51,953 bases of DNA, taken from assembly GCA_902782245.1 (NCBI GenBank), contig CACZMI010000012.1:1-51953 (forward strand), read 5' to 3'. Within the stretch, counting starts at the first letter, position 1. The number at the start of each line of letters is the position of its first letter. The position numbers and the translations under genes are program-made. The notes below the pieces were generated by a model. The model ran no database searches and was not told the DNA's origin. It was given only the letters and a program-made list of their open reading frames with translations. The stretch comes from an uncultured Bacteroidales bacterium (GTDB lineage Bacteria; Bacteroidota; Bacteroidia; Bacteroidales; Bacteroidaceae). Shown in pieces: positions 4,634-37,569 of this stretch.

Positions 4634-6523
4634 GTGGACAGAAGATCATATTTAGGCCTTTTAATCATTACCGGCATACTGATGGTAGTATTGTTCTGGT
4701 CAGGCAGGAATCAAAAGAAAAACGCACCCGCCAAGGCACATTACGAGCAGGTTATAGACTCTGCCAGAGCAGCAGCCGATGACGCACAGGCAATTATAAG
4801 TGAGCCTGTAGCAATCTCACAGCAGGATTCCCTGTCACCTTTGTTCCCCGCCCTGAACGGAGAGGAAGAAATTACGGTGCTTGACAACGGACTCGTAAGA
4901 ATCGGAATAACATCAAAAGGCGCAGCTCCCTGCTTTGCCCAACTCAGCAGCTATAACGACCAGGAGGGCCGTGAAGTGACGCTTTTCGGCAAGGATGAGA
5001 TAAGTCTCAACTTCAAGATAGACGGCAAGAACCAGAATATCCAGAGTAAGAACCTCTATTTTGAGACAATAGACAACGGCTCCAATTCAGTAACCATGCG
5101 TCTCAACACCAACGGTTACGGTTATCTGGATTTCATATACACCCTGCTCCCCGAGAGTTATATGCTCAACCTGGACATCAAGTCAACAGGTATGGACAAT
5201 TTCTTCTCATCCAACCTCAACACACTTGCCGTTGACTGGATTCAGAACCTGCGCCAGCAGGAGAAGGGATTCGAGTTTGAGCAGCGATATACCACCCTCA
5301 CCTACAAGCGCAATGACAAGGTTAAGTCCAAGGTCATGAACGTTGCGCCCGCATCAGCCAAACCAGGCAAGCCTTCACAGAAAACCATTGAGGAACCGCT
5401 GGACTGGGTAGCATACAAGAACCAGTTCTTCTCATGCATAATGATTGCGTCCGATGCATATGCCGGCGGCACACAGCTCTCGGGCGTATCATATATGAAA
5501 GGTCTGGGTTATATGAAAAAGCTCATGGCAAAGACCCATACCGCCTTTGACCCTGAAGGTAACTCACCCACCCGTTTCCAGTTCTATTTCGGTCCCAATG
5601 ACTACAGGATTCTCAAGCAGAACAGCAAGCTGGCGCACGGTGACCATAAGATCCGTCTTAACCGCGTAATGGATCTGGGCTGGCCGATAGTACGTGAAGT
5701 CAACCGATTCCTCATCATACCTCTGTTCACCCTCCTCTCCAAGTGGAACCTGAACATGGGTATCGTAATACTGCTCATGACACTCATTGTAAAGATCCTG
5801 GTATTCCCCGCGCAGGTCAAGAGTTATATGTCATCGGCCAAGATGCGTGCTCTCAAACCTTATGTGGATGAGGTCAACGCCAAGTATCCCAAACCTGAGG
5901 ATGCCATGAAAAAGCAACAGGAGACCATGGCCGTCTACAGCAAGTACGGCGTAAGCCCCATGGGCGGATGTCTGCCTTCACTTGTACAGATGCCTGTATG
6001 GATGGCATTCTTCTTCTTTGTACCCAATGCCATCGAACTGCGTCAGCAGAGTTTCCTGTGGGCAACTGATCTGACAGGATTCGACGAACTTATAAGATGG
6101 AACACAAACATTCCGCTCATAGGCAACCACCTGAGTATATTCTGCCTGTTGTTCTGCATAACCAACATCGTCAACACCATCTACTCTATGCAACAGCAGC
6201 AGATGGCACCCGGACAGGAGGATAGCATGAAAATGATGAAGTGGATGATGTATGCAATGCCTGTCATATTCTTCTTCTCATTCAACAACTACTCATCCGG
6301 TCTGTGCTACTACTACTTCATATCCGGTCTGGTAGGTATCATCACCATGATATGGCTGCGCCGGTCAACCGATGACAAAGCCATCCTGGCCAAGTTGGAA
6401 GCCGATTATGAAGCCAGCCGCAATGACCCGAGCAAGCGCAAGACAGGCGGCAACAACATGATGGCCCGTCTGGAAGCCCTCCAAAAGGAACAGGAAAGAT
6501 TGCAGAAACAGCAGAAACGATAA
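4634..6523 (+). CDS. yidC: Membrane protein insertase YidC
   Basis: YidC inserts and folds inner-membrane proteins, alone or with SecYEG. The 629-residue product has the Gram-negative architecture: N-terminal transmembrane helix (residues 5-22), a large periplasmic beta-domain (about 75-350), then the conserved 60KD_IMP core with helices around LLSKWNLNMGIVILLMTLIVKILVFP, the positively charged hydrophilic loop SYMSSAKMRALKPYVDEV, and further helices ending with MMYAMPVIFFFSFNNYSSGLCYYYF. The tail is charged and coiled (LEALQKEQERLQKQQKR). Translation begins at a GTG codon, supported by the family's usual N-terminus (MDxxS/T). A TAATTTCG box sits at 4595-4602. A perfect terminator palindrome follows the stop. 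Confidence 0.96.
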   Translation: MDRRSYLGLLIITGILMVVLFWSGRNQKKNAPAKAHYEQVIDSARAAADDAQAIISEPVAISQQDSLSPLFPALNGEEEITVLDNGLVRIGITSKGAAPCFAQLSSYNDQEGREVTLFGKDEISLNFKIDGKNQNIQSKNLYFETIDNGSNSVTMRLNTNGYGYLDFIYTLLPESYMLNLDIKSTGMDNFFSSNLNTLAVDWIQNLRQQEKGFEFEQRYTTLTYKRNDKVKSKVMNVAPASAKPGKPSQKTIEEPLDWVAYKNQFFSCIMIASDAYAGGTQLSGVSYMKGLGYMKKLMAKTHTAFDPEGNSPTRFQFYFGPNDYRILKQNSKLAHGDHKIRLNRVMDLGWPIVREVNRFLIIPLFTLLSKWNLNMGIVILLMTLIVKILVFPAQVKSYMSSAKMRALKPYVDEVNAKYPKPEDAMKKQQETMAVYSKYGVSPMGGCLPSLVQMPVWMAFFFFVPNAIELRQQSFLWATDLTGFDELIRWNTNIPLIGNHLSIFCLLFCITNIVNTIYSMQQQQMAPGQEDSMKMMKWMMYAMPVIFFFSFNNYSSGLCYYYFISGLVGIITMIWLRRSTDDKAILAKLEADYEASRNDPSKRKTGGNNMMARLEALQKEQERLQKQQKR

Positions 6524-27643: not shown

Positions 27644-28297
27644 AGCGGGAATATCCAGAATTATGGCCGTGTTGAGCCTGATACCGGTTATGTATCCTTT
27701 GATCACGGCGAGGAGTGCGAGATTGAGGCTGTGCCGTTCCAGGGCTACGAGTTTGTGCGCTGGAGTGACGGACGCACTGAGAACCCGAGAACGATTGTGG
27801 CTGTGAAGCAGTTTGAGCTGACGGCTATATTCCACTATGTAAGGACAGAGGAGTTCTGGCTTGAAGAGCGTCGCTGCTCAATCCAGGGCAACGGCACGGA
27901 GTTGCACTACGGCGATGAGATTGAGGTTACGGTTACGCCTGACAACGGTTTCCACTTTGTGGGCTGGAGTGATGACATGGCCAACACCAATCCTACCCGC
28001 CGGTTTGTGATGACCGAGAACTTTGACTGGGATATCTACCCGGTATGCGAGAGTAACGAGACCTACACGCTGGAGGTGTATGCGGATCCTGAGGAGGGCG
28101 GCACGGTTACGGTGAGCCCGCTGAAGGAGGAGTATCACATGGATGAGCGTGTGGATTTGGTTGCTACGCCTGCTGAGGGATGGCGGTTTGCCGGATGGCA
28201 CAGCCGGTACTGGTCTGATTCCGGCCGGGAGACTAGCGTTGATATTTACCGGGATATGACGATTGAGGCTCGGTTTGTGGAGATTGAGGGGGATTAG
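27644..28297 (+). pseudogene. Remnant of an InlB-B-repeat-like (divergent Flg_new) surface protein
   Basis: The frame is open from 27602 to 28297 but has no plausible start. From about 27647 it reads GNIQNYGRVEPDTGYVSF and then three repeats of the form V-x-P-x-G-[YF]-x-F-x-x-W: VPFQGYEFVRWSDG, VTPDNGFHFVGWSDD and ATPAEGWRFAGWHSRYW. These beta-repeats occur at the ends of large secreted or surface proteins. The N-terminal part is missing, so this is a 3' fragment joined head to head with the propeller remnant on the other strand. Confidence 0.6.
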
Positions 28298-28742: not shown

Positions 28743-30035
28743 TTAAAAAATATTACTAGAATATATGTTTATCAAACCATCAATGAAAGCCTCTTTCTCG
28801 TATTCACAAAAAGTTCCAGATTGATAGATGTCTTTACATTCATGATACGCACGAGCTCTACATGCCCCACCACAAACGTATTTTAAAAAACAGGTTGAGC
28901 AACCATTAATATTGTCAACTGTCATATGTCTGCATTTTTCTACAACTGGCGACTTAAAGTATAATTCATGTATACTAGACTCGTAAATGTTGCCTATATA
29001 GAATTCTGGATAATGTAGTAATTGGCACGGATACACATCTCCTGTTGATGATATACTTAATTCTGAATCACCAACTGCACATTTACAATTTCTGCATATT
29101 TGAGAGTTGTCCAATGATGATTCACAATATGAAAGAGGGTTGACACCTTCTGCATTAAACAAAGCATCATAATACTCTTTGCCAGTAATAGAAATATCTG
29201 TTTCTGATTTAATCGCATTACCTGCAGGAAATAAAGGAGCAAAACTAAGCAAGCTCCCATATTTCTGTGCCATACTACTAACATCATGGATATTTAATCT
29301 ATTAACTGTCATTGACAAAGATGTATTAACACCCTTCTGTAATAACAAATCTATATTATTGAGTGTTCTTTCATATGTATTAGGGCCACGGAAAGACTCG
29401 TGGAGTTCTTTGTAACTGCCATCCACGCTTATTGTAACTTTATCAAATACGGTTTTTATTTGATCTACAATAGTTTCATTAATTAATGTGGCATTTGTTA
29501 GAATATCCACATAATGACCTTTTGTTTTAATATAGCGAGCTATCTCTATGCAATCCTTATTCAACAATGGTTCCCCGCCTGTTAATGAAAATTTTATGGC
29601 CGATGAAATGTCGTGTATTTCATCAATTACTCTTTTATAATCTTTTAGTTGCATCTTAGGGTGTTTCGACTCAACCCTATCTGTAGCGTAACAATACCTA
29701 CAGTTTAAATTGCATTTAGCTGAAATAGATAATTGCACTATCGACAAACCACCTTTGTTACGAAGAACAGGAACTTCCCTGGGAGATGCTACATCAAACA
29801 ATTTTGATTGAATGCAATAATCCAAAAAACGAGCAACCTTTATAGAAGTATCTTTGTTAAAATGCTTTTCAAATAGTGCTATTATTTCTCCCTTTGTCAA
29901 AGAACCATTACACAATGATAGTATTTTACTACCGTTTTCATCGGTAACGACCCATGATGGAATATCAGTATTAAAAAAAATGACCTTGTCTTTTCTCTTA
30001 ATACAACTTACTGATGTAGGTAATGCTAGTTTCAT
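28743..30035 (-). CDS. Radical SAM/SPASM peptide maturase with PqqD-like N-terminus
   Basis: A 430-residue cytoplasmic enzyme predicted to modify the Cys-repeat protein encoded two bases upstream. Residues 1-85 resemble a PqqD-type RiPP recognition element (FFNTDIPSWVVTDENGSKIL). The radical SAM core follows with the cluster motif C108-NLN-C112-RY-C115 and GGEP at 153-156, plus ISVDGSYKELHE. The C-terminal SPASM domain has abundant cysteines for auxiliary clusters: C314, C317, C319, C337, C368, C379, C382, C388, C392, C400 and C410, including CSTCFLKYVCGGACRA. Enzymes of this layout form thioether (sactipeptide or ranthipeptide) or carbon-carbon links in peptides. The exact reaction is not predictable here. 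The AT-rich base composition sets it off from flanking core genes. Confidence 0.92.
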   Translation of the reverse strand: MKLALPTSVSCIKRKDKVIFFNTDIPSWVVTDENGSKILSLCNGSLTKGEIIALFEKHFNKDTSIKVARFLDYCIQSKLFDVASPREVPVLRNKGGLSIVQLSISAKCNLNCRYCYATDRVESKHPKMQLKDYKRVIDEIHDISSAIKFSLTGGEPLLNKDCIEIARYIKTKGHYVDILTNATLINETIVDQIKTVFDKVTISVDGSYKELHESFRGPNTYERTLNNIDLLLQKGVNTSLSMTVNRLNIHDVSSMAQKYGSLLSFAPLFPAGNAIKSETDISITGKEYYDALFNAEGVNPLSYCESSLDNSQICRNCKCAVGDSELSISSTGDVYPCQLLHYPEFYIGNIYESSIHELYFKSPVVEKCRHMTVDNINGCSTCFLKYVCGGACRARAYHECKDIYQSGTFCEYEKEAFIDGLINIYSSNIF

Positions 30036-30037
30036 TA

Positions 30038-31063
30038 TTAACTACCTGCGCAACCAAAGGAAGAACTACACTTACCACCGCCACCTGCACAATCAAAAGA
30101 AGAACTACATTTACCGCCACCGCCGGCACAATCAAAAGAAGAACTACACTTACCTTGACCACCTGATCCTTGGCCAGCACAATCAAATGATGAGCTACAA
30201 GCTCCGCCGCCACCCGAACAACTAAATGAAGAACTACATTTACCCTGGCCACCTGAGCCCTGACCGGCACAATCAAAAGAAGAACTGCATTTTCCGCTAC
30301 CACCGGCACAACTAAAAGATGAGCTACATCTTCCTTGAGCACCAGATTCACTGTTTTCTTCTGATTTGCCTAACGAAGTCTTACTGTGATCTTGACTATT
30401 AGGGCTATCACCAGCACAACTTATAGAAGAACTACATTTGCCGCCACCACCTGCGCAACTAATAGAAGAACTGCATTTACCCTGACCACCTGCACCTTCT
30501 CCAGCACAACTTATAGAAGAACTACAAGCACCGCCGCCACCTGAGCAACTTATAGAAGAACTACACTTACCCTGACCACCTGCGCCCTGGCCACTACAAC
30601 TTATAGAAGAACTACAAGCACCGCCGCCACCTGAGCAACTTATGGAAGAACTACACTTACCCTGACCACCTGCACCCTGGCCACTACAACTTATTGAAGA
30701 ACTGCAAGCACCACCGCCACCTGCACAGCTTATTGAGGAACTACATTTACCCTGACCACCTGTACCCTGGCCGCTACAACTTATTGAAGAACTACAAGCA
30801 CCGCCGCCACCTGCACAATCAATAGAAGCACTGCACTTACCCTGACCGCCCGTACCTTGACCGCCACAACTTATTGATGCACTGCACGTACCGCCGCCAC
30901 CTGCACAATCAATAGATGCGCTACACACACCCATAGCATTGAGCAATGAATTAGCAAATGAAGCTTTTGAACCTAAAAACAAGCTTCCAACAGAGAACCC
31001 TCCAATTATGGCTTTCTTAAAGAAGTCCCTACGACTAATATTATCATTATTATTTTTTTTCAT
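30038..31063 (-). CDS. Tat-leader Cys-rich repeat protein, likely radical SAM substrate
   Basis: A 341-residue protein with a leader of about 46 residues holding a textbook twin-arginine signal (ISRRDFFKKA, Arg11-Arg12, then hydrophobic IIGGFSVGSLFLG and KASFAN). The rest is 19 units of the form C-[SA]-[SA]-S-[IF]-[SDG]-C joined by Gly-rich spacers that alternate between six residues (AGGGGA type) and ten (SGQGAGGQGK type). Units 1-12 carry Ile and units 13-19 Phe, split by an acidic, Lys-containing linker (DSPNSQDHSKTSLGKSEENS). There are 38 cysteines, all in units. Tat export implies folding or modification before export. With the maturase directly downstream it reads as a RiPP-like precursor or modified surface protein. 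The core sequence matches no family I know. Confidence 0.9.
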   Translation of the reverse strand: MKKNNNDNISRRDFFKKAIIGGFSVGSLFLGSKASFANSLLNAMGVCSASIDCAGGGGTCSASISCGGQGTGGQGKCSASIDCAGGGGACSSSISCSGQGTGGQGKCSSSISCAGGGGACSSSISCSGQGAGGQGKCSSSISCSGGGGACSSSISCSGQGAGGQGKCSSSISCSGGGGACSSSISCAGEGAGGQGKCSSSISCAGGGGKCSSSISCAGDSPNSQDHSKTSLGKSEENSESGAQGRCSSSFSCAGGSGKCSSSFDCAGQGSGGQGKCSSSFSCSGGGGACSSSFDCAGQGSGGQGKCSSSFDCAGGGGKCSSSFDCAGGGGKCSSSFGCAGS

Positions 31064-31074
31064 TTCGTATATTT

Positions 31075-31812
31075 TCAGTTAGTAGCTTTCAGGATTTTCT
31101 CCCGCATATTCTTATATGTTTCATCCGATATTCTCCCATTCTCCTTAAGAGAATTGAGCTGTTGTAATTGAGTCTCAATAGATATATCAGGTGCGTTACT
31201 CTCCTTTTTTATAGCTTGATTCTTTTTCTCTTCAATTTTCTCTAATTCCTCTAATGTTCCTAGTTTACCACCTATTATTTCGCCATCGTCATCGACAATT
31301 GGAATGAAAATATATGGATGATTTTTAATATACTCCTTCTTTTCATCTTCGGAATAATCTGATCGGAATTGAATGTAATAAATCTGTTCTTTATATTCTT
31401 CTGATGTTCTTATGCGAGCCCTCAATTCTGGATCTACCGCAATATCCCCCTTTGTTCTAATACAATAGTTACGTGCGCCAGCAGGGTCATTATTCATCTT
31501 AGAATTAAAAGTGTCTGATATTTTTTGTTTGTATTTTTCAAACCATGACAACGTCTCTTTATCATTATTTAATCTATCGCCATAATCTGATAGTGTTATC
31601 ATAAGTTCCTTATACTCTTGATTAGCAGCCTCTATATTATTGCTAATGGTATTAATGGCCTGCTGATAAACTTGCAAGTTCATCCTTACTGGCTCCCTGG
31701 CTGGAACATATGATTGAGAAGAAACGGAAGTTGTAATAAAAAATGACACCAAAAGACTTGCCATCATTATTTTGAACAAAAACGAAATATTATTGTTTTC
31801 TTTTTGTTTCAT
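31075..31812 (-). CDS. Exported coiled-coil protein with SHOCT-like C-terminus
   Basis: A 245-residue protein of unknown function, first gene of the Cys-repeat operon (11 bases before the repeat gene). It has an N-terminal signal peptide (FKIMMASLLVSFFITTSVSSQ), a predicted helical/coiled-coil region (VYQQAINTISNNIEAANQEY onward), an acidic middle with FIPIVDDDGEIIGGKLGTLEELEKIEEKK, and a final 30 residues resembling a SHOCT oligomerisation motif (LQQLNSLKENGRISDETYKN). It could be a periplasmic partner or anchor for the modified repeat protein. An ATG three codons upstream (31821) is equally possible. TATATTTG (minus strand, 31849-31856) is the -7 box for the operon. Confidence 0.75.
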   Translation of the reverse strand: MKQKENNNISFLFKIMMASLLVSFFITTSVSSQSYVPAREPVRMNLQVYQQAINTISNNIEAANQEYKELMITLSDYGDRLNNDKETLSWFEKYKQKISDTFNSKMNNDPAGARNYCIRTKGDIAVDPELRARIRTSEEYKEQIYYIQFRSDYSEDEKKEYIKNHPYIFIPIVDDDGEIIGGKLGTLEELEKIEEKKNQAIKKESNAPDISIETQLQQLNSLKENGRISDETYKNMREKILKATN

Positions 31813-31967
31813 AATGACCATTATTAATGAATCCTAATTAACTGACTTCAAATATAATGTATTATTGAGAATAAGTTTTATAACTAGATTAAAAAGATTA
31901 CACCTTCTCTTTTTATATGAACGCTATGTACTCAATATTCCGACAAATTATATCTAGTAATAGCATT

Positions 31968-33691: not shown

Positions 33692-34750
33692 ATGACTGAT
33701 AGAGCATTAAAAGCAAAAGGGCTGTATAGAAAAGACAAAGATCAAACCACTTATGAAAAAAAAGAGTTTATTGATCCATTAAAGAAAATGGTCAATAAAG
33801 GACTGTCAGGACGTTCCAGAGGAATAAAACTGCCAAAATATATTGTATTTAAACTAGATAACAATGGGCACTTACTTCTTGATATACAGGAGCAAATTGC
33901 AATAAAGCCTAACGGTGAAAGCAAAAGATTAAATGCCACATGCAATAATATGCAAACAGATAATGCAGCTTTTGAAGGATGGGCAGTTTGTTTAAAAGCA
34001 TGGTTTCCTGATAAGATACACACGGTATCGCTAAAATGGGATATTCCATCTGATGAAATGCGAAATCCGCACTACAATCGTTTCCTATTTCGCGCATGGC
34101 GTTTTGCACAGTTGTATGATTGGTTTACAATTGAAGAATCAAACTATGGAGAAATAATAACATTTGAAAATACCTATAATCATTTAAGTATAAACTGTTC
34201 TAATAGCGACCCACTACGGAAAGGAAATCTGGAAAACAGAACAGAATATGATTTTGTCAAAGTACCGTCAATTGCTGAAAAATTCAAATCGTTTTATGGA
34301 ATAAAGAACTTTGATCACCAACTGCACGTTGGAATAAAGAATAAAGGAAAGCAATTTTTCACAGGTGGACAATCAGCGATAGATTTATGGGGGCGCTCAA
34401 ACAATGTCCTAACCGTAATTGAACTAAAATACGACAATATTATGGTTGGTATTATCTCTGAGTTATTCCTTTATATCTGTGTGGTAATATCACTATCCAA
34501 GGGAGAAATTTCTGCTCCTGAATCTTGCATACTTGAACATGAGTCAGAACTCTATGCAAATATTAAATCAGTCAACTCTTTCAAAGCAGAAATGCTTGCT
34601 GATGAGTATCACCCGCTGCTTGAGAACAATGGAATACTTGATATTTTGAATAATAACAATGCCGAAGGAGAAGGCTTTAAACTACATTTTGGTAAAACCT
34701 CTTTTTCATATAACGAAATAACTAAAGCACTCCACCTTTCATGCGAATAA
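33692..34750 (+). CDS. PD-(D/E)XK nuclease-like protein
   Basis: A 352-residue protein, first of four tightly packed genes. The C-terminal third carries the pattern of a PD-(D/E)XK nuclease core: GGQSAID (Asp231), LWG, then VIELKYDN with Glu244-Leu-Lys246, followed by a helix GIISELFLYICVV. The N-terminal 200 residues are basic and rich in aromatic residues (for example FLFRAWRFAQLYDWFTIEE), possibly target recognition. Substrate may be DNA or RNA; this is inference. The gene is AT-rich compared with downstream genes, suggesting a different origin. Its last ten bases overlap the next gene's start. TACATTTA at 33653-33660 is a -7-like box. Confidence 0.6.
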   Translation: MTDRALKAKGLYRKDKDQTTYEKKEFIDPLKKMVNKGLSGRSRGIKLPKYIVFKLDNNGHLLLDIQEQIAIKPNGESKRLNATCNNMQTDNAAFEGWAVCLKAWFPDKIHTVSLKWDIPSDEMRNPHYNRFLFRAWRFAQLYDWFTIEESNYGEIITFENTYNHLSINCSNSDPLRKGNLENRTEYDFVKVPSIAEKFKSFYGIKNFDHQLHVGIKNKGKQFFTGGQSAIDLWGRSNNVLTVIELKYDNIMVGIISELFLYICVVISLSKGEISAPESCILEHESELYANIKSVNSFKAEMLADEYHPLLENNGILDILNNNNAEGEGFKLHFGKTSFSYNEITKALHLSCE

Positions 34751-36021
34751 CCTTATATAGACCCAATCAGATAGGCGGCTGCATCACGGAGATTGAATCC
34801 GCTGCCGGCACCAAGGTGTTCATTGATCTGGGGCATAACCTACCCAGGGGAGGTGAAGACGCCCCTGATGAATATGATTCGGATGAAGCCATAATGGAAC
34901 TTACCCTTGGAGCACAGGCTATCCTCTACACCCACATACACGGCGATCATATAGGATTGTTTAATCATGTACCCGATGGATTGAAGCAGTATGTAGGCCC
35001 ACTTGCAAAAGAGTTGATGCTCCACAAGTACAAACACATGAGTCATATTCCTGGAGAGGAAGAACTATATGAAGGGTATATCAAGCAGCTGGAACGATTT
35101 GAGGTCTATGATAAAGGACACGAATTCAAGATTGGTGATATTACTATAACTCCTTTCCAGGTGAGTCATTCTGCTGCAGACTCTTATATGCTGCTTATAG
35201 ACTGCGATGGAAAGACCGTGTTGCACACTGGTGACTTCCGTGACCATGGTTATATGGGAACAGGAGTCTTTAAAGTACTGGAGCCGTACCATATAAAGGA
35301 CAATGTTGATGTTATGATAACGGAGGGTACAAATATTGGCAACACCAGCAAATCTATGCGTAAGGAATCTACGCTGAAGAAAGAATTTGCTGATGTTATC
35401 AAACAGTACAAGTATGTTTTTGTTATGTGCTCATCGACCGATGCAGACAGGCTTGAGTCCATATATGGAGCGAATATGCAATCTGTCAAAAGGCCATTTA
35501 TTACAGATGGGTATCAGAAAGAAGCTATGATGATATTGGCAGGAGCAGCAGATAATAAACGCCCATTCTATCATTTTGACAGTGTTGAGCCATATAGTTA
35601 TTGTCCAACAAACGAAAAACTGAACTGGCTGATGAAGAACAAAGGATTTGTGATGCTTATCCGCTGTTCTGATAAGTTCAAAAGGTTTCTTGAAAAGATA
35701 TTTCCATTGTGTACTCCAGAACAGAGCTGTATAGTGTATTCACAATATCACGGCTATATTGATAACAGGAAAGATAACACGGCCTTTAATCCTATTGCTT
35801 ATGATTTCATTCAGCAGTTTAAAGAGCGAGGATTTGCTTTCCACGAAATTCATACTTCTGGGCATGCATCAGCTGAAACTATCAAGAAACTGATTGAAAC
35901 TGTCAATCCCAAGCAGTCTATTATTGGCATCCATAAAGACGAAAGACAAACATTAGAATCACTTGGCCTGAGCGATGAATTGAGAGGTAAAATAACCGCC
36001 AAACAGACCCTGGAACTATAA
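34741..36021 (+). CDS. Metallo-beta-lactamase/beta-CASP fold hydrolase, RNase J-like
   Basis: A 426-residue predicted nuclease. The metal-binding motif THIHGDH (residues 64-70) is followed by further ligand candidates His143 (QVSHSAADS) and Asp165 (LHTGDF). The 180-430 region fits a beta-CASP domain: VMITEGTN, VMCSSTDADR, the His motif HTSGHAS (371-377) and KQSIIGIHKD, which resembles motif C of RNase J and related RNA-processing enzymes. It is shorter than RNase J (about 550 residues). Coupling to the upstream nuclease-like gene (ten-base overlap) and the downstream phosphoesterase (two-base gap) points to one nucleic-acid-processing system. Confidence 0.82.
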   Translation: MRITLYRPNQIGGCITEIESAAGTKVFIDLGHNLPRGGEDAPDEYDSDEAIMELTLGAQAILYTHIHGDHIGLFNHVPDGLKQYVGPLAKELMLHKYKHMSHIPGEEELYEGYIKQLERFEVYDKGHEFKIGDITITPFQVSHSAADSYMLLIDCDGKTVLHTGDFRDHGYMGTGVFKVLEPYHIKDNVDVMITEGTNIGNTSKSMRKESTLKKEFADVIKQYKYVFVMCSSTDADRLESIYGANMQSVKRPFITDGYQKEAMMILAGAADNKRPFYHFDSVEPYSYCPTNEKLNWLMKNKGFVMLIRCSDKFKRFLEKIFPLCTPEQSCIVYSQYHGYIDNRKDNTAFNPIAYDFIQQFKERGFAFHEIHTSGHASAETIKKLIETVNPKQSIIGIHKDERQTLESLGLSDELRGKITAKQTLEL

Positions 36022-36023
36022 CT

Positions 36024-36674
36024 ATGCTGAGCATTCTGCACATTTCAGATACACATGGCCTTCACCGAAAACTAATGGATATGCCGGCAGCTGATGTCCT
36101 AGTTCATAGCGGGGACATTAGCAATAGTGGAACGGAGGCAGAGGTGTTGGATTTCATCAACTGGCTATCTGAACTGCCGTTCAAGTACAAGTTATTTGTT
36201 TGCGGGAACCACGACTGCTGTTTATGGGATGCTGAGGATATTGAAGATTTACCCGATGGCATTCACTTTTTACAGGACAGAAGTATCAAGATAAACGGTG
36301 TAGTTTTTAGCGGAATTGGCTATGATCATTCAGTAGATAAGATTGACCCAAAGGCGGATGTGGTTATTACACATGAACCTCCAACTATGATATTGGACTA
36401 TTCATCTGGAACTCACTGGGGGAACATTAAGATAAGGAAGCGGGTTGAAGAGATAAAACCCCGTTTCCACTTGTTTGGCCATACTCATGAAAGTTACGGC
36501 TTACAGATTATTGGAGCTACCAGATACTCTAACGCATCATTACTGAATGACAAACTTGAATTGGTAAACAAACCTAGAGCCCTATTGGGGTTCCCTACAG
36601 GGATAATGGGTAGAATGGCTATTAAGTATGTCGAAGAAAAAATTTTGAATAACGATAAACACAATGGGAAGTAA
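36024..36674 (+). CDS. Calcineurin-like metallophosphoesterase
   Basis: A 216-residue enzyme with a complete set of family metal-binding motifs: D9-x-H11 in ISDTHG, GD (30-31) in VHSGDIS, GNHD (61-64), ITHEPP and GHTHE. The size and motif spacing match the small cytoplasmic phosphoesterase group (MPPED-like) rather than the large exported nucleotidases. It may hydrolyse nucleotide or nucleic-acid phosphoesters; the substrate is unknown. It starts two bases after the beta-CASP gene and overlaps the WYL gene by 11 bases. Confidence 0.88.
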   Translation: MLSILHISDTHGLHRKLMDMPAADVLVHSGDISNSGTEAEVLDFINWLSELPFKYKLFVCGNHDCCLWDAEDIEDLPDGIHFLQDRSIKINGVVFSGIGYDHSVDKIDPKADVVITHEPPTMILDYSSGTHWGNIKIRKRVEEIKPRFHLFGHTHESYGLQIIGATRYSNASLLNDKLELVNKPRALLGFPTGIMGRMAIKYVEEKILNNDKHNGK

Positions 36675-37569
36675 GACAATAAACCGCTACGTATGGCTGC
36701 TGGACATACTGCTGCAGAAGAAAAAGCTGACGTTTGAGGAGATAAGCGGCCTGTGGGAAAGGAGTTGCCTGGGTGACGGCAACCCGTTGCCCTTACGGAC
36801 ATTCCATCAGCACAAGAGCGCTATTGAGGAGATGTTTGGCGTGGAGATAAAGTGCAATCCGTCTGACGGGTACCACTACTATATTGGCGAGCTGGACAAC
36901 TTCAGAAAGGACCGCACAAAGCAGTGGCTGTACAACTCTTTCACGCTGTCAAATATGATAATTGCCGGCCATAACATGAAGGGCCGGATTCTGTTTGAGG
37001 AGATTCCGCACGGTACTCAGTATCTGCAGACCATTATTGAGGCCATGCAGCAGAACCGGGTGCTGGAGATAGACTACCAGCCGTTTAAGGGCGACCATGC
37101 CATTTATCATCTGGCGCCGTACGCCATGAAGGTTTATAACAGGCGCTGGTATGTGGTGGGTAAGATGGATGAAGCAAACGGCATAAGGCATATTGCACTG
37201 GACAGAGTGATTGATCTGGCCGTGACAGATGTAGCCTTTAAGATGCCCAAGAAGTTTGATGCCGAGGAGTACTATGCCAACACAGTAGGCATATACGTGA
37301 GCGATGACCTTAAGCCCCAGACAGTACGCATACGCGTGTATGGTGATAAGGTTGATTATGTGCGCTCTCTGCCGCTACACAAGAGCCAGGAGGAGGTTGT
37401 GACCAAGAACGGCGAGTACAGCGAATTCAAGTATAAAGTGTGCCTTACTCCGGAGCTTACCACACAGCTGCTGTCCATGGGCGAATATGTGGAAGTACTG
37501 GAACCGAAGGAACTGAAAGACACAATGAAAGAACGCCTTAAAAAGGCCTTGAAAACCTACAAGGATTGA
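36664..37569 (+). CDS. WYL-domain transcriptional regulator
   Basis: A 301-residue predicted DNA-binding regulator. The N-terminal 90 residues form a winged helix-turn-helix region (INRYVWLLDILLQKKKLTFE, LPLRTFHQHKSAIEEMFGVE). The WYL domain is centred on residues 120-200 (VLEIDYQPFKGDHAIYHLAP, YNRRWYVVGKMDE), and a C-terminal WCX-like extension ends at DTMKERLKKALKTY. WYL regulators bind ligands such as nucleotides or nucleic acids and often control phage-defence operons (CapW/BrxR type). Being the last gene of the nuclease operon, it may autoregulate it or the divergent-function genes after it. Confidence 0.87.
   Translation: MGSKTINRYVWLLDILLQKKKLTFEEISGLWERSCLGDGNPLPLRTFHQHKSAIEEMFGVEIKCNPSDGYHYYIGELDNFRKDRTKQWLYNSFTLSNMIIAGHNMKGRILFEEIPHGTQYLQTIIEAMQQNRVLEIDYQPFKGDHAIYHLAPYAMKVYNRRWYVVGKMDEANGIRHIALDRVIDLAVTDVAFKMPKKFDAEEYYANTVGIYVSDDLKPQTVRIRVYGDKVDYVRSLPLHKSQEEVVTKNGEYSEFKYKVCLTPELTTQLLSMGEYVEVLEPKELKDTMKERLKKALKTYKD

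Follow-up and report, generated by a model that had tools for sequence, protein, structure and literature searches.

A two-gene cassette pairing a Tat-led cysteine-repeat protein with a radical SAM/SPASM maturase in Bacteroidales and other bacteria

A 51,953-nucleotide stretch of DNA from an uncultured Bacteroidales bacterium (contig CACZMI010000012.1, positions 1 to 51,953, assembly GCA_902782245.1), hereafter called the window, carries a gene for a protein with a twin-arginine translocation (Tat)-type leader and an array of cysteine pairs of the form C-x5-C. The next gene encodes a radical S-adenosylmethionine (SAM)/SPASM enzyme. Repeat genes of this kind adjoin related enzymes at eight other loci, denoted here by L and a number. 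We propose, with a probability of roughly 0.6, that the two genes form a cassette resembling those for ribosomally synthesised and post-translationally modified peptides (RiPPs), in which the enzyme would place thioethers in each unit of the repeat protein (the precursor) and Tat would export the locked chain. The original prediction, made from the letters of the window and their open reading frames (ORFs), had placed three genes on the minus strand here, and its coordinates, strand and gaps agree with the ORF positions (Table 1): 11 bases separate an upstream gene from the precursor and 2 separate the precursor from the maturase.

As first described, the precursor has 341 residues and 38 cysteines. 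All of these lie inside 19 exact C-x5-C units, with none outside, and the units are mostly spaced alternately by 13 and 17 residues. For each of nine precursors (one of them, L156, a fragment), 20,000 shuffles of the core never placed every cysteine in such pairs. When the 19 units of the window were compared pairwise, synonymous differences were far commoner than non-synonymous ones (proportions pS 0.63 and pN 0.13, respectively), which argues for selection on the protein repeat and against a young expansion of the DNA.

The usual Tat motif is [ST]RRxFLK. SRRDFFKK in the window comes only close to it, so the leader is Tat-type but not the perfect twin-arginine leader that had been claimed, and the NCBIfam and Pfam scans listed no Tat model on the window's own precursor. 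Two of the six orthologous precursors scanned (L054 and L154) scored above the cut-off of TIGR01409; apart from the Tat signal, no NCBIfam or Pfam family exceeded its cut-off on the seven precursors scanned. RRxF[LF]K followed by a hydrophobic stretch is present in all seven distinct complete leaders, and in each of them an A-x-A-like site precedes the first cysteine by 1 to 9 residues. Tat signals are described as an R-R-x-hydrophobic-hydrophobic motif in an N-terminal signal (PMC10924467), and all seven leaders contain that motif. In the window, cleavage is predicted near the SFA site of the leader.

The assignment of the maturase to the radical SAM/SPASM enzymes was borne out, as both Pfam domains passed their cut-offs (Radical_SAM 94.1 bits, SPASM 36.0 bits). 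Seven-cysteine SPASM domains follow the pattern CX9-15GX4C, CX2CX5CX3C and a final C, and the window enzyme fits it with C319-X12-G332-X4-C337, C379-X2-C382-X5-C388-X3-C392 and C410. These seven cysteines, the radical SAM triad and C42 of the PqqD-like N-terminal part are invariant in nine of nine maturases. In the predicted structure (predicted local distance difference test, pLDDT, 78), residues 9-76 form strands and helices. The closest solved structures in a Foldseek search were the peptide maturases CteB, TigE, SuiB and SkfB, together with anSME. Of the NCBIfam models, StsB (NF045574) ranked first for all four maturases scanned, far below its cut-off (168.1, 183.6, 175.8 and 183.6 bits), with a match over nearly the full length in three of them. 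A role in defence was rejected: the PADLOC match to prokaryotic viperins (pVip, 90.5 bits) was confined to residues 100-257, the shared radical SAM core.

We searched for relatives of both proteins. With the window enzyme as single query, the best match other than itself had 26% identity in each of two genome sets, 61 from relatives and 37 from the genus, both of which include the window's own genome. The matches listed for 393 genomes of the order had 27-34% identity, and one locus in viral contigs had 26%. All plasmid matches were below 60% identity, and those among the matches listed (20 of 55 records) were below 30%. The precursor query returned only the window itself from the 393 order genomes at E <= 1e-8. 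It returned nothing from viral contigs and plasmids, a result of little weight because the BLAST low-complexity filter masks most of the repeat.

A degenerate DNA pattern for two units, which matched 10 times in the window against 0 expected from shuffles, was used instead. Scanning the genome_contigs collection with it, using no enzyme information, gave 20 stretches, and two viral stretches also matched. Four of the genomic stretches encode Tat-led C-x5-C repeat proteins: L064 and L065 in metagenome-assembled genomes (MAGs) of Prevotellaceae, L054 in a Desulfocapsa MAG and L056 in a deltaproteobacterial MAG that the tree tool assigned to Myxococcota. An orthologous maturase with 37-57% identity to that of the window adjoins the repeat gene in all four, and no maturase relative was found at E <= 1e-3 in the other 18 stretches (16 genomic, 2 viral). 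Because the scan was blind to the enzyme, this adjacency is an independent test of the pairing, although the nearly identical loci L064 and L065 do not count as independent cases. Among the rejected genomic stretches, 5 were interrupted by a stop in the frame of the match, whereas 11 were open cysteine-rich frames without a Tat leader, judged by eye to be chance matches. The two viral stretches were also rejected, one for a stop within the match and the other for a stop shortly upstream and the lack of a Tat leader.

A second round, with a profile of five enzymes, added L147 and L148 from 395 genomes of the window's phylum, L154, which is a second cassette in the genome of L064, and L156 from 345 genomes of the phylum of L054. 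A C-x5-C repeat ORF adjoins the enzyme in all four. The maturase was originally put forward as dedicated to the Tat-led cysteine-repeat protein, and repeat proteins regularly occurring without it were named as the observation that would count against this. The searches did not refute the pairing: a maturase lies beside every precursor from the enzyme-blind scan and a repeat gene beside every further enzyme.

Unit statistics were taken from 69 units in 8 precursors. C1, C7 and G9 are fixed in all 69, and every cysteine of every precursor lies within a C-x5-C unit. Position 2 is G or S, and position 8 is A, S, G or T in 67 units. Position 4 is S in 47, T in 10, A in 7, G in 4 and N in 1, and position 10 is G in 42. 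Precursors contain 19 units in the window, 12 in L064 and L065, and 10, 8, 6, 5 or 4 elsewhere, with 5 in the L156 fragment. The great length highlighted by the original prediction is thus a feature of the window member, not of the other complete precursors with their 4 to 12 units. Between the precursors of L064 and L065 there are 18 synonymous changes but only 2 non-synonymous ones. The distance between precursor and maturase is 2 bases in L064 and L065, as in the window, 12 in L156, 70 in L054 (if the first ATG is used) and 79 in L147 and L148, and the genes overlap by 4 bases in L154. In L056 the order is reversed, with the enzyme 20 bases ahead of the precursor. TatC is present in the window's genome and in seven of the eight cassette genomes.

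In the proposed pathway, the maturase would bind the precursor in the cytoplasm, probably through its PqqD-like part, and would move along the repeat, linking each cysteine sulfur to a downstream carbon within a few residues. A thioether cannot join two cysteines to each other, so each requires a carbon acceptor. By analogy with streptosactin, two small thioether rings would arise per unit, one from C1 to position 4 (S, T, A, G or N) and the other from C7 to G9 or position 10. Tat would then export the stiffened chain, and signal peptidase would cut at the A-x-A-like site shortly ahead of the first unit, which would make a dedicated transporter and protease unnecessary. No protease or transporter that could be linked to the gene pair was present among eight window neighbours scanned with Pfam; the other loci were covered by reading their ORF lists by eye. 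The mature product, nearly pure repeat, would act in the periplasm or at the surface, and is more likely a rigid structural or binding polymer than a small antibiotic. Tat transports folded proteins (PMC10924467), and a chain of small thioether rings would be hard to thread unfolded, which may explain why every leader seen carries a Tat-type instead of a Sec signal.

Streptosactin offers the best precedent for two small separate rings per unit, as opposed to one link per unit. Its alpha-thioethers join Cys25 to Ser28 and Cys31 to Gly34, in the pattern C-x2-S-x2-C-x2-G (PMC8172795). A second passage of the same paper prints Cys15-Ser28, which we take to be a misprint because Cys25 fits the 14-residue product and the four-residue rings (PMC13361665). 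The two cysteines are six residues apart, each is linked three residues downstream, and the separate four-residue rings are installed in order (PMC8172795, PMC13361665, PMC8326336). The cassette unit C-S-S-S-I-S-C-A-G-G has the same spacing and layout, a likeness that is suggestive of similar ring chemistry. Streptosactin and its maturase StsB (GggB) belong to the GGG family of streptococcal radical SAM RiPPs (RaS-RiPPs), which is named for its precursor motif (PMC13361665). The product has 14 residues, comprises a single unit and is freed from its leader by the protease GggC (PMC8172795), whereas cassette precursors have 4-19 units and a Tat-type leader, with no protease gene in the pair.

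Several observations weigh against this pathway. Only 33 of the 69 units follow the streptosactin layout, counted as S or T at position 4 together with G at position 10, and 26 of these have S. In the units of L147 and L148 position 4 is occupied by G or A, and the fixed glycine stands at position 9, not 10. Rings of the QMP family have a single intervening residue (PMC13361665). The maturase scores of 168-184 bits place these enzymes outside the StsB family, which has a cut-off of 625 bits. The recognition domain is weaker than originally claimed: PqqD reached 13.9 bits in the window enzyme against a Pfam cut-off of 23.4, and among three orthologues scanned it reached 19.7 and 19.3 bits in two and was unlisted in the third. 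The structure model of the precursor is of low confidence (pLDDT 48) and was set aside. At L156 the repeat alone is seen, with stops upstream in its frame, and TatC was not found in the MAG that carries L056 (G819).

The strongest competitor, which we regard as unlikely, is a ranthipeptide-type product in which cysteines are linked to beta or gamma side-chain carbons instead of alpha carbons, for example those of positions 5 or 6, where Asp, Ser or Glu is frequent. CteB, the best solved relative by both profile and fold, makes a SCIFF thioether peptide, and beta and gamma links are listed for this class (PMC8326336). Like other ranthipeptide maturases, CteB shares with the window enzyme an architecture of RiPP recognition element (RRE)-like, radical SAM and SPASM parts, but the identity in the fold match is about 20% and the precursor is different. 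The window enzyme also stays below the cut-offs of both ranthipeptide models (78.7 against 425 bits for SCIFF, 94.4 against 340 for PapB), and StsB, the model of an alpha-thioether maturase, outscores both in all four maturases. Position 6 is D or E in 35 of the 69 units, but G, S, N, T or A in the other 34. Thioethers between Cys and Asp or Glu are known from QhpD, which forms them in a protein that subsequently moves to the periplasm (PMC7876137).

Less probable still is that the cysteines stay free until export and then form disulfides that staple a beta-structure with one strand per unit, the enzyme doing something else, such as an epimerisation or a single change. Beetle antifreeze proteins have similar C-x5-C disulfide rungs. 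The cysteines are indeed paired at a fixed spacing, and the precursor model shows one strand per unit, but that model is too weak for use, and no solved sequence resembles the precursor (best E 0.34, to a nanobody). A maturase adjoining every repeat gene found also argues against free cysteines. A metal-binding or buffering exported protein, its cysteines tuned by modification as in the signal-bearing, cysteine-rich bufferin precursors modified in the cytoplasm (PMC12452194), is very improbable, given that the units contain no conserved His or Met and that no metal-handling gene was seen in the Pfam scan of the eight window neighbours (the other loci were covered by reading ORF lists by eye).

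The thioether-and-Tat pathway has partial counterparts in other systems. For quinohemoprotein amine dehydrogenase (QhpC/QhpD), a radical SAM enzyme makes several thioethers within one protein in the cytoplasm before that protein reaches the periplasm (PMC7876137), but there the protease QhpE removes the leader and the ABC transporter QhpF translocates the product, which has no repeat and no Tat signal. Bufferins are RiPP precursors that bear a general export signal (PMC12452194), yet they combine a Sec signal with MNIO enzymes, and with a Tat-type leader and a radical SAM enzyme the cassette falls outside their definition. In TvgA/TvgB, a radical SAM enzyme acts many times on a tandem-repeat precursor (PMC9062424), but the repeat is TVGG, the product contains cyclopropylglycine without any cysteine chemistry, and the cluster includes peptidase and transporter genes.

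The cassette probably belongs with the radical SAM RiPPs. As a rule, a bacterial RiPP is a short peptide served by a leader, protease and transporter of its own, and the presence of even a Sec signal in a RiPP precursor is termed highly unusual (PMC12452194). No Tat-exported radical SAM RiPP was found in searches of the open-licence PubMed Central literature. A term search of a Bacteroidales RiPP survey (PMC10352776) gave no Tat or twin-arginine, and in one open-licence paper on the Tat pathway that mentions radical SAM (PMC10924467), the term denotes a neighbouring gene only. If the proposal is right, the cassette brings radical SAM peptide chemistry together with folded-protein export in a Tat-led precursor of as many as 19 cross-linkable units, and long thioether polymers can be made with very few genes. 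By analogy with bufferins, whose authors propose a comparable masking of the Sec signal (PMC12452194), the PqqD-like part may bind the Tat signal and delay export; the cassette makes it testable whether a maturase decides the timing of Tat export of its substrate. A bolder version, which we hold only tentatively, is that this is the first Tat-exported RiPP class, with a minimal two-gene pathway. The Tat signal would be both the leader bound by the maturase and the export ticket, the maturase would serve as a Tat proofreading chaperone that hides the signal until cross-linking is complete, only the finished rigid polymer of 4 to 19 streptosactin-like units would leave, and the cassette would move between phyla.

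Anaerobic bacteria of several phyla carry the cassette, and most of the cassette genomes seem to be MAGs. It is present in 1 of 37 genomes of the window's genus and in 2 of 86 genomes of the family of L148. G+C content is 46% for the window, 33% for the enzyme and upstream gene and 47% for the precursor, but at third codon positions the enzyme and precursor genes both have a G+C of 0.25. The L154 cassette shows the opposite contrast, with 57.5% against 39.5% in its short flanks, and is adjoined by a tyrosine integrase (L154:3168-4208). At the other six loci, G+C differs from the flanks by 0.02 to 0.08. The 5.7-Mb genome that holds both L064 and L154 (G820) thus carries two different cassettes; given its size, it may be a mixed MAG. 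A viral origin was rejected, as the best viral identity was 36% over a short stretch among the matches listed (600 stretches, 79 loci). The L056 enzyme had no match in plasmids at E <= 1e-25.

The nine cassette enzymes form a bounded family: they score 509-800 bits against the enzyme profile, which was built from five of them, and the next score is 217 bits. In a tree of 23 enzymes with an arbitrary root, a branch with support 97/97 separates the nine from the others. L147 and L148, from the window's own phylum, group with L056 (100/99), apart from the window's clade. Patchy occurrence, G+C and the tree fit horizontal spread, and this two-gene RiPP system is probably both patchy and mobile. 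Of 132 other loci, mostly distant radical SAM matches, 2 had an open frame of at least three C-x5-C-x-G units within their flanks of 1.5 to 6 kb, a range that a more distant gene would escape.

Both exceptions are phage contigs with a different, C-x2-C type repeat. In L095 (viral contig 3300031673_000187), and equally in L096, a 299-residue protein with CTGC/CTSC-type cysteine repeats is encoded two genes upstream of a radical SAM enzyme (L095:3180-4079 and 4956-6314), among what look like phage structural genes; it is perhaps a phage-borne modified cysteine-repeat protein. The gene for the next-nearest radical SAM/SPASM enzyme (217 bits) overlaps that of a 285-residue exported-looking protein near an ABC transporter gene (L149:528-2967), possibly another maturase-substrate pair. 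A 790-residue ORF at L008:1384-3756 apparently contains two tandem radical SAM/SPASM halves.

Table 1. Features of the cassette locus, in window coordinates.
Feature	Position	Strand	Basis
Radical SAM/SPASM maturase, 430 residues	28743..30035	-	NCBIfam, Pfam, alignment, tree
SPASM region, seven invariant Cys (C319, C337, C379, C382, C388, C392, C410)	28806..29081	-	Pfam, alignment
Radical SAM core, residues 103-256, CX3CX2C at C108, C112, C115	29268..29729	-	Pfam, alignment
PqqD-like (RRE-like) N-terminal part, about residues 1-80	29796..30035	-	Pfam below cut-off; strands and helices in model
Precursor, 341 residues, Tat-type leader and 19 C-x5-C units	30038..31063	-	ORF list, translation, unit alignment
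Repeat array, residues 47-338, 19 C-x5-C units	30050..30925	-	Translation, pattern scan, unit alignment
Polar linker, 29 residues (217-245), between units 12 and 13	30329..30415	-	Translation, unit alignment
Tat-type leader, residues 1-37: SRRDFFKK, hydrophobic stretch, SFA (A-x-A-like) site	30953..31063	-	Leader comparison
Upstream secreted coiled-coil/SHOCT-like protein	31075..31821	-	ORF list, Pfam, comparison with other loci

The upstream gene had been counted as the first of three in the system, a view we abandoned because its best match in the eight other cassette loci, as far as these were fetched, has E = 2.1. It is possibly co-transcribed with the precursor and maturase. The SHOCT-like label is itself weaker than claimed (16.2 bits against a Pfam cut-off of 27). 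At L147 and L148 a gene with Sel1-type repeats stands in its place directly upstream of the precursor (L147:3173-3835 and L148:3304-3750; domain scan of L147 only).

Elsewhere in the window, a plus-strand run of four genes (33692-37569) encodes a protein of no known family, a metallo-beta-lactamase/RMMBL protein, a calcineurin-like phosphoesterase and a WYL-domain protein; PADLOC gave no match for the first two. A plus-strand ORF of 188 residues at 27731-28297 contains an InlB B-repeat-type domain (81.4 bits) and is perhaps the remnant of a surface protein.

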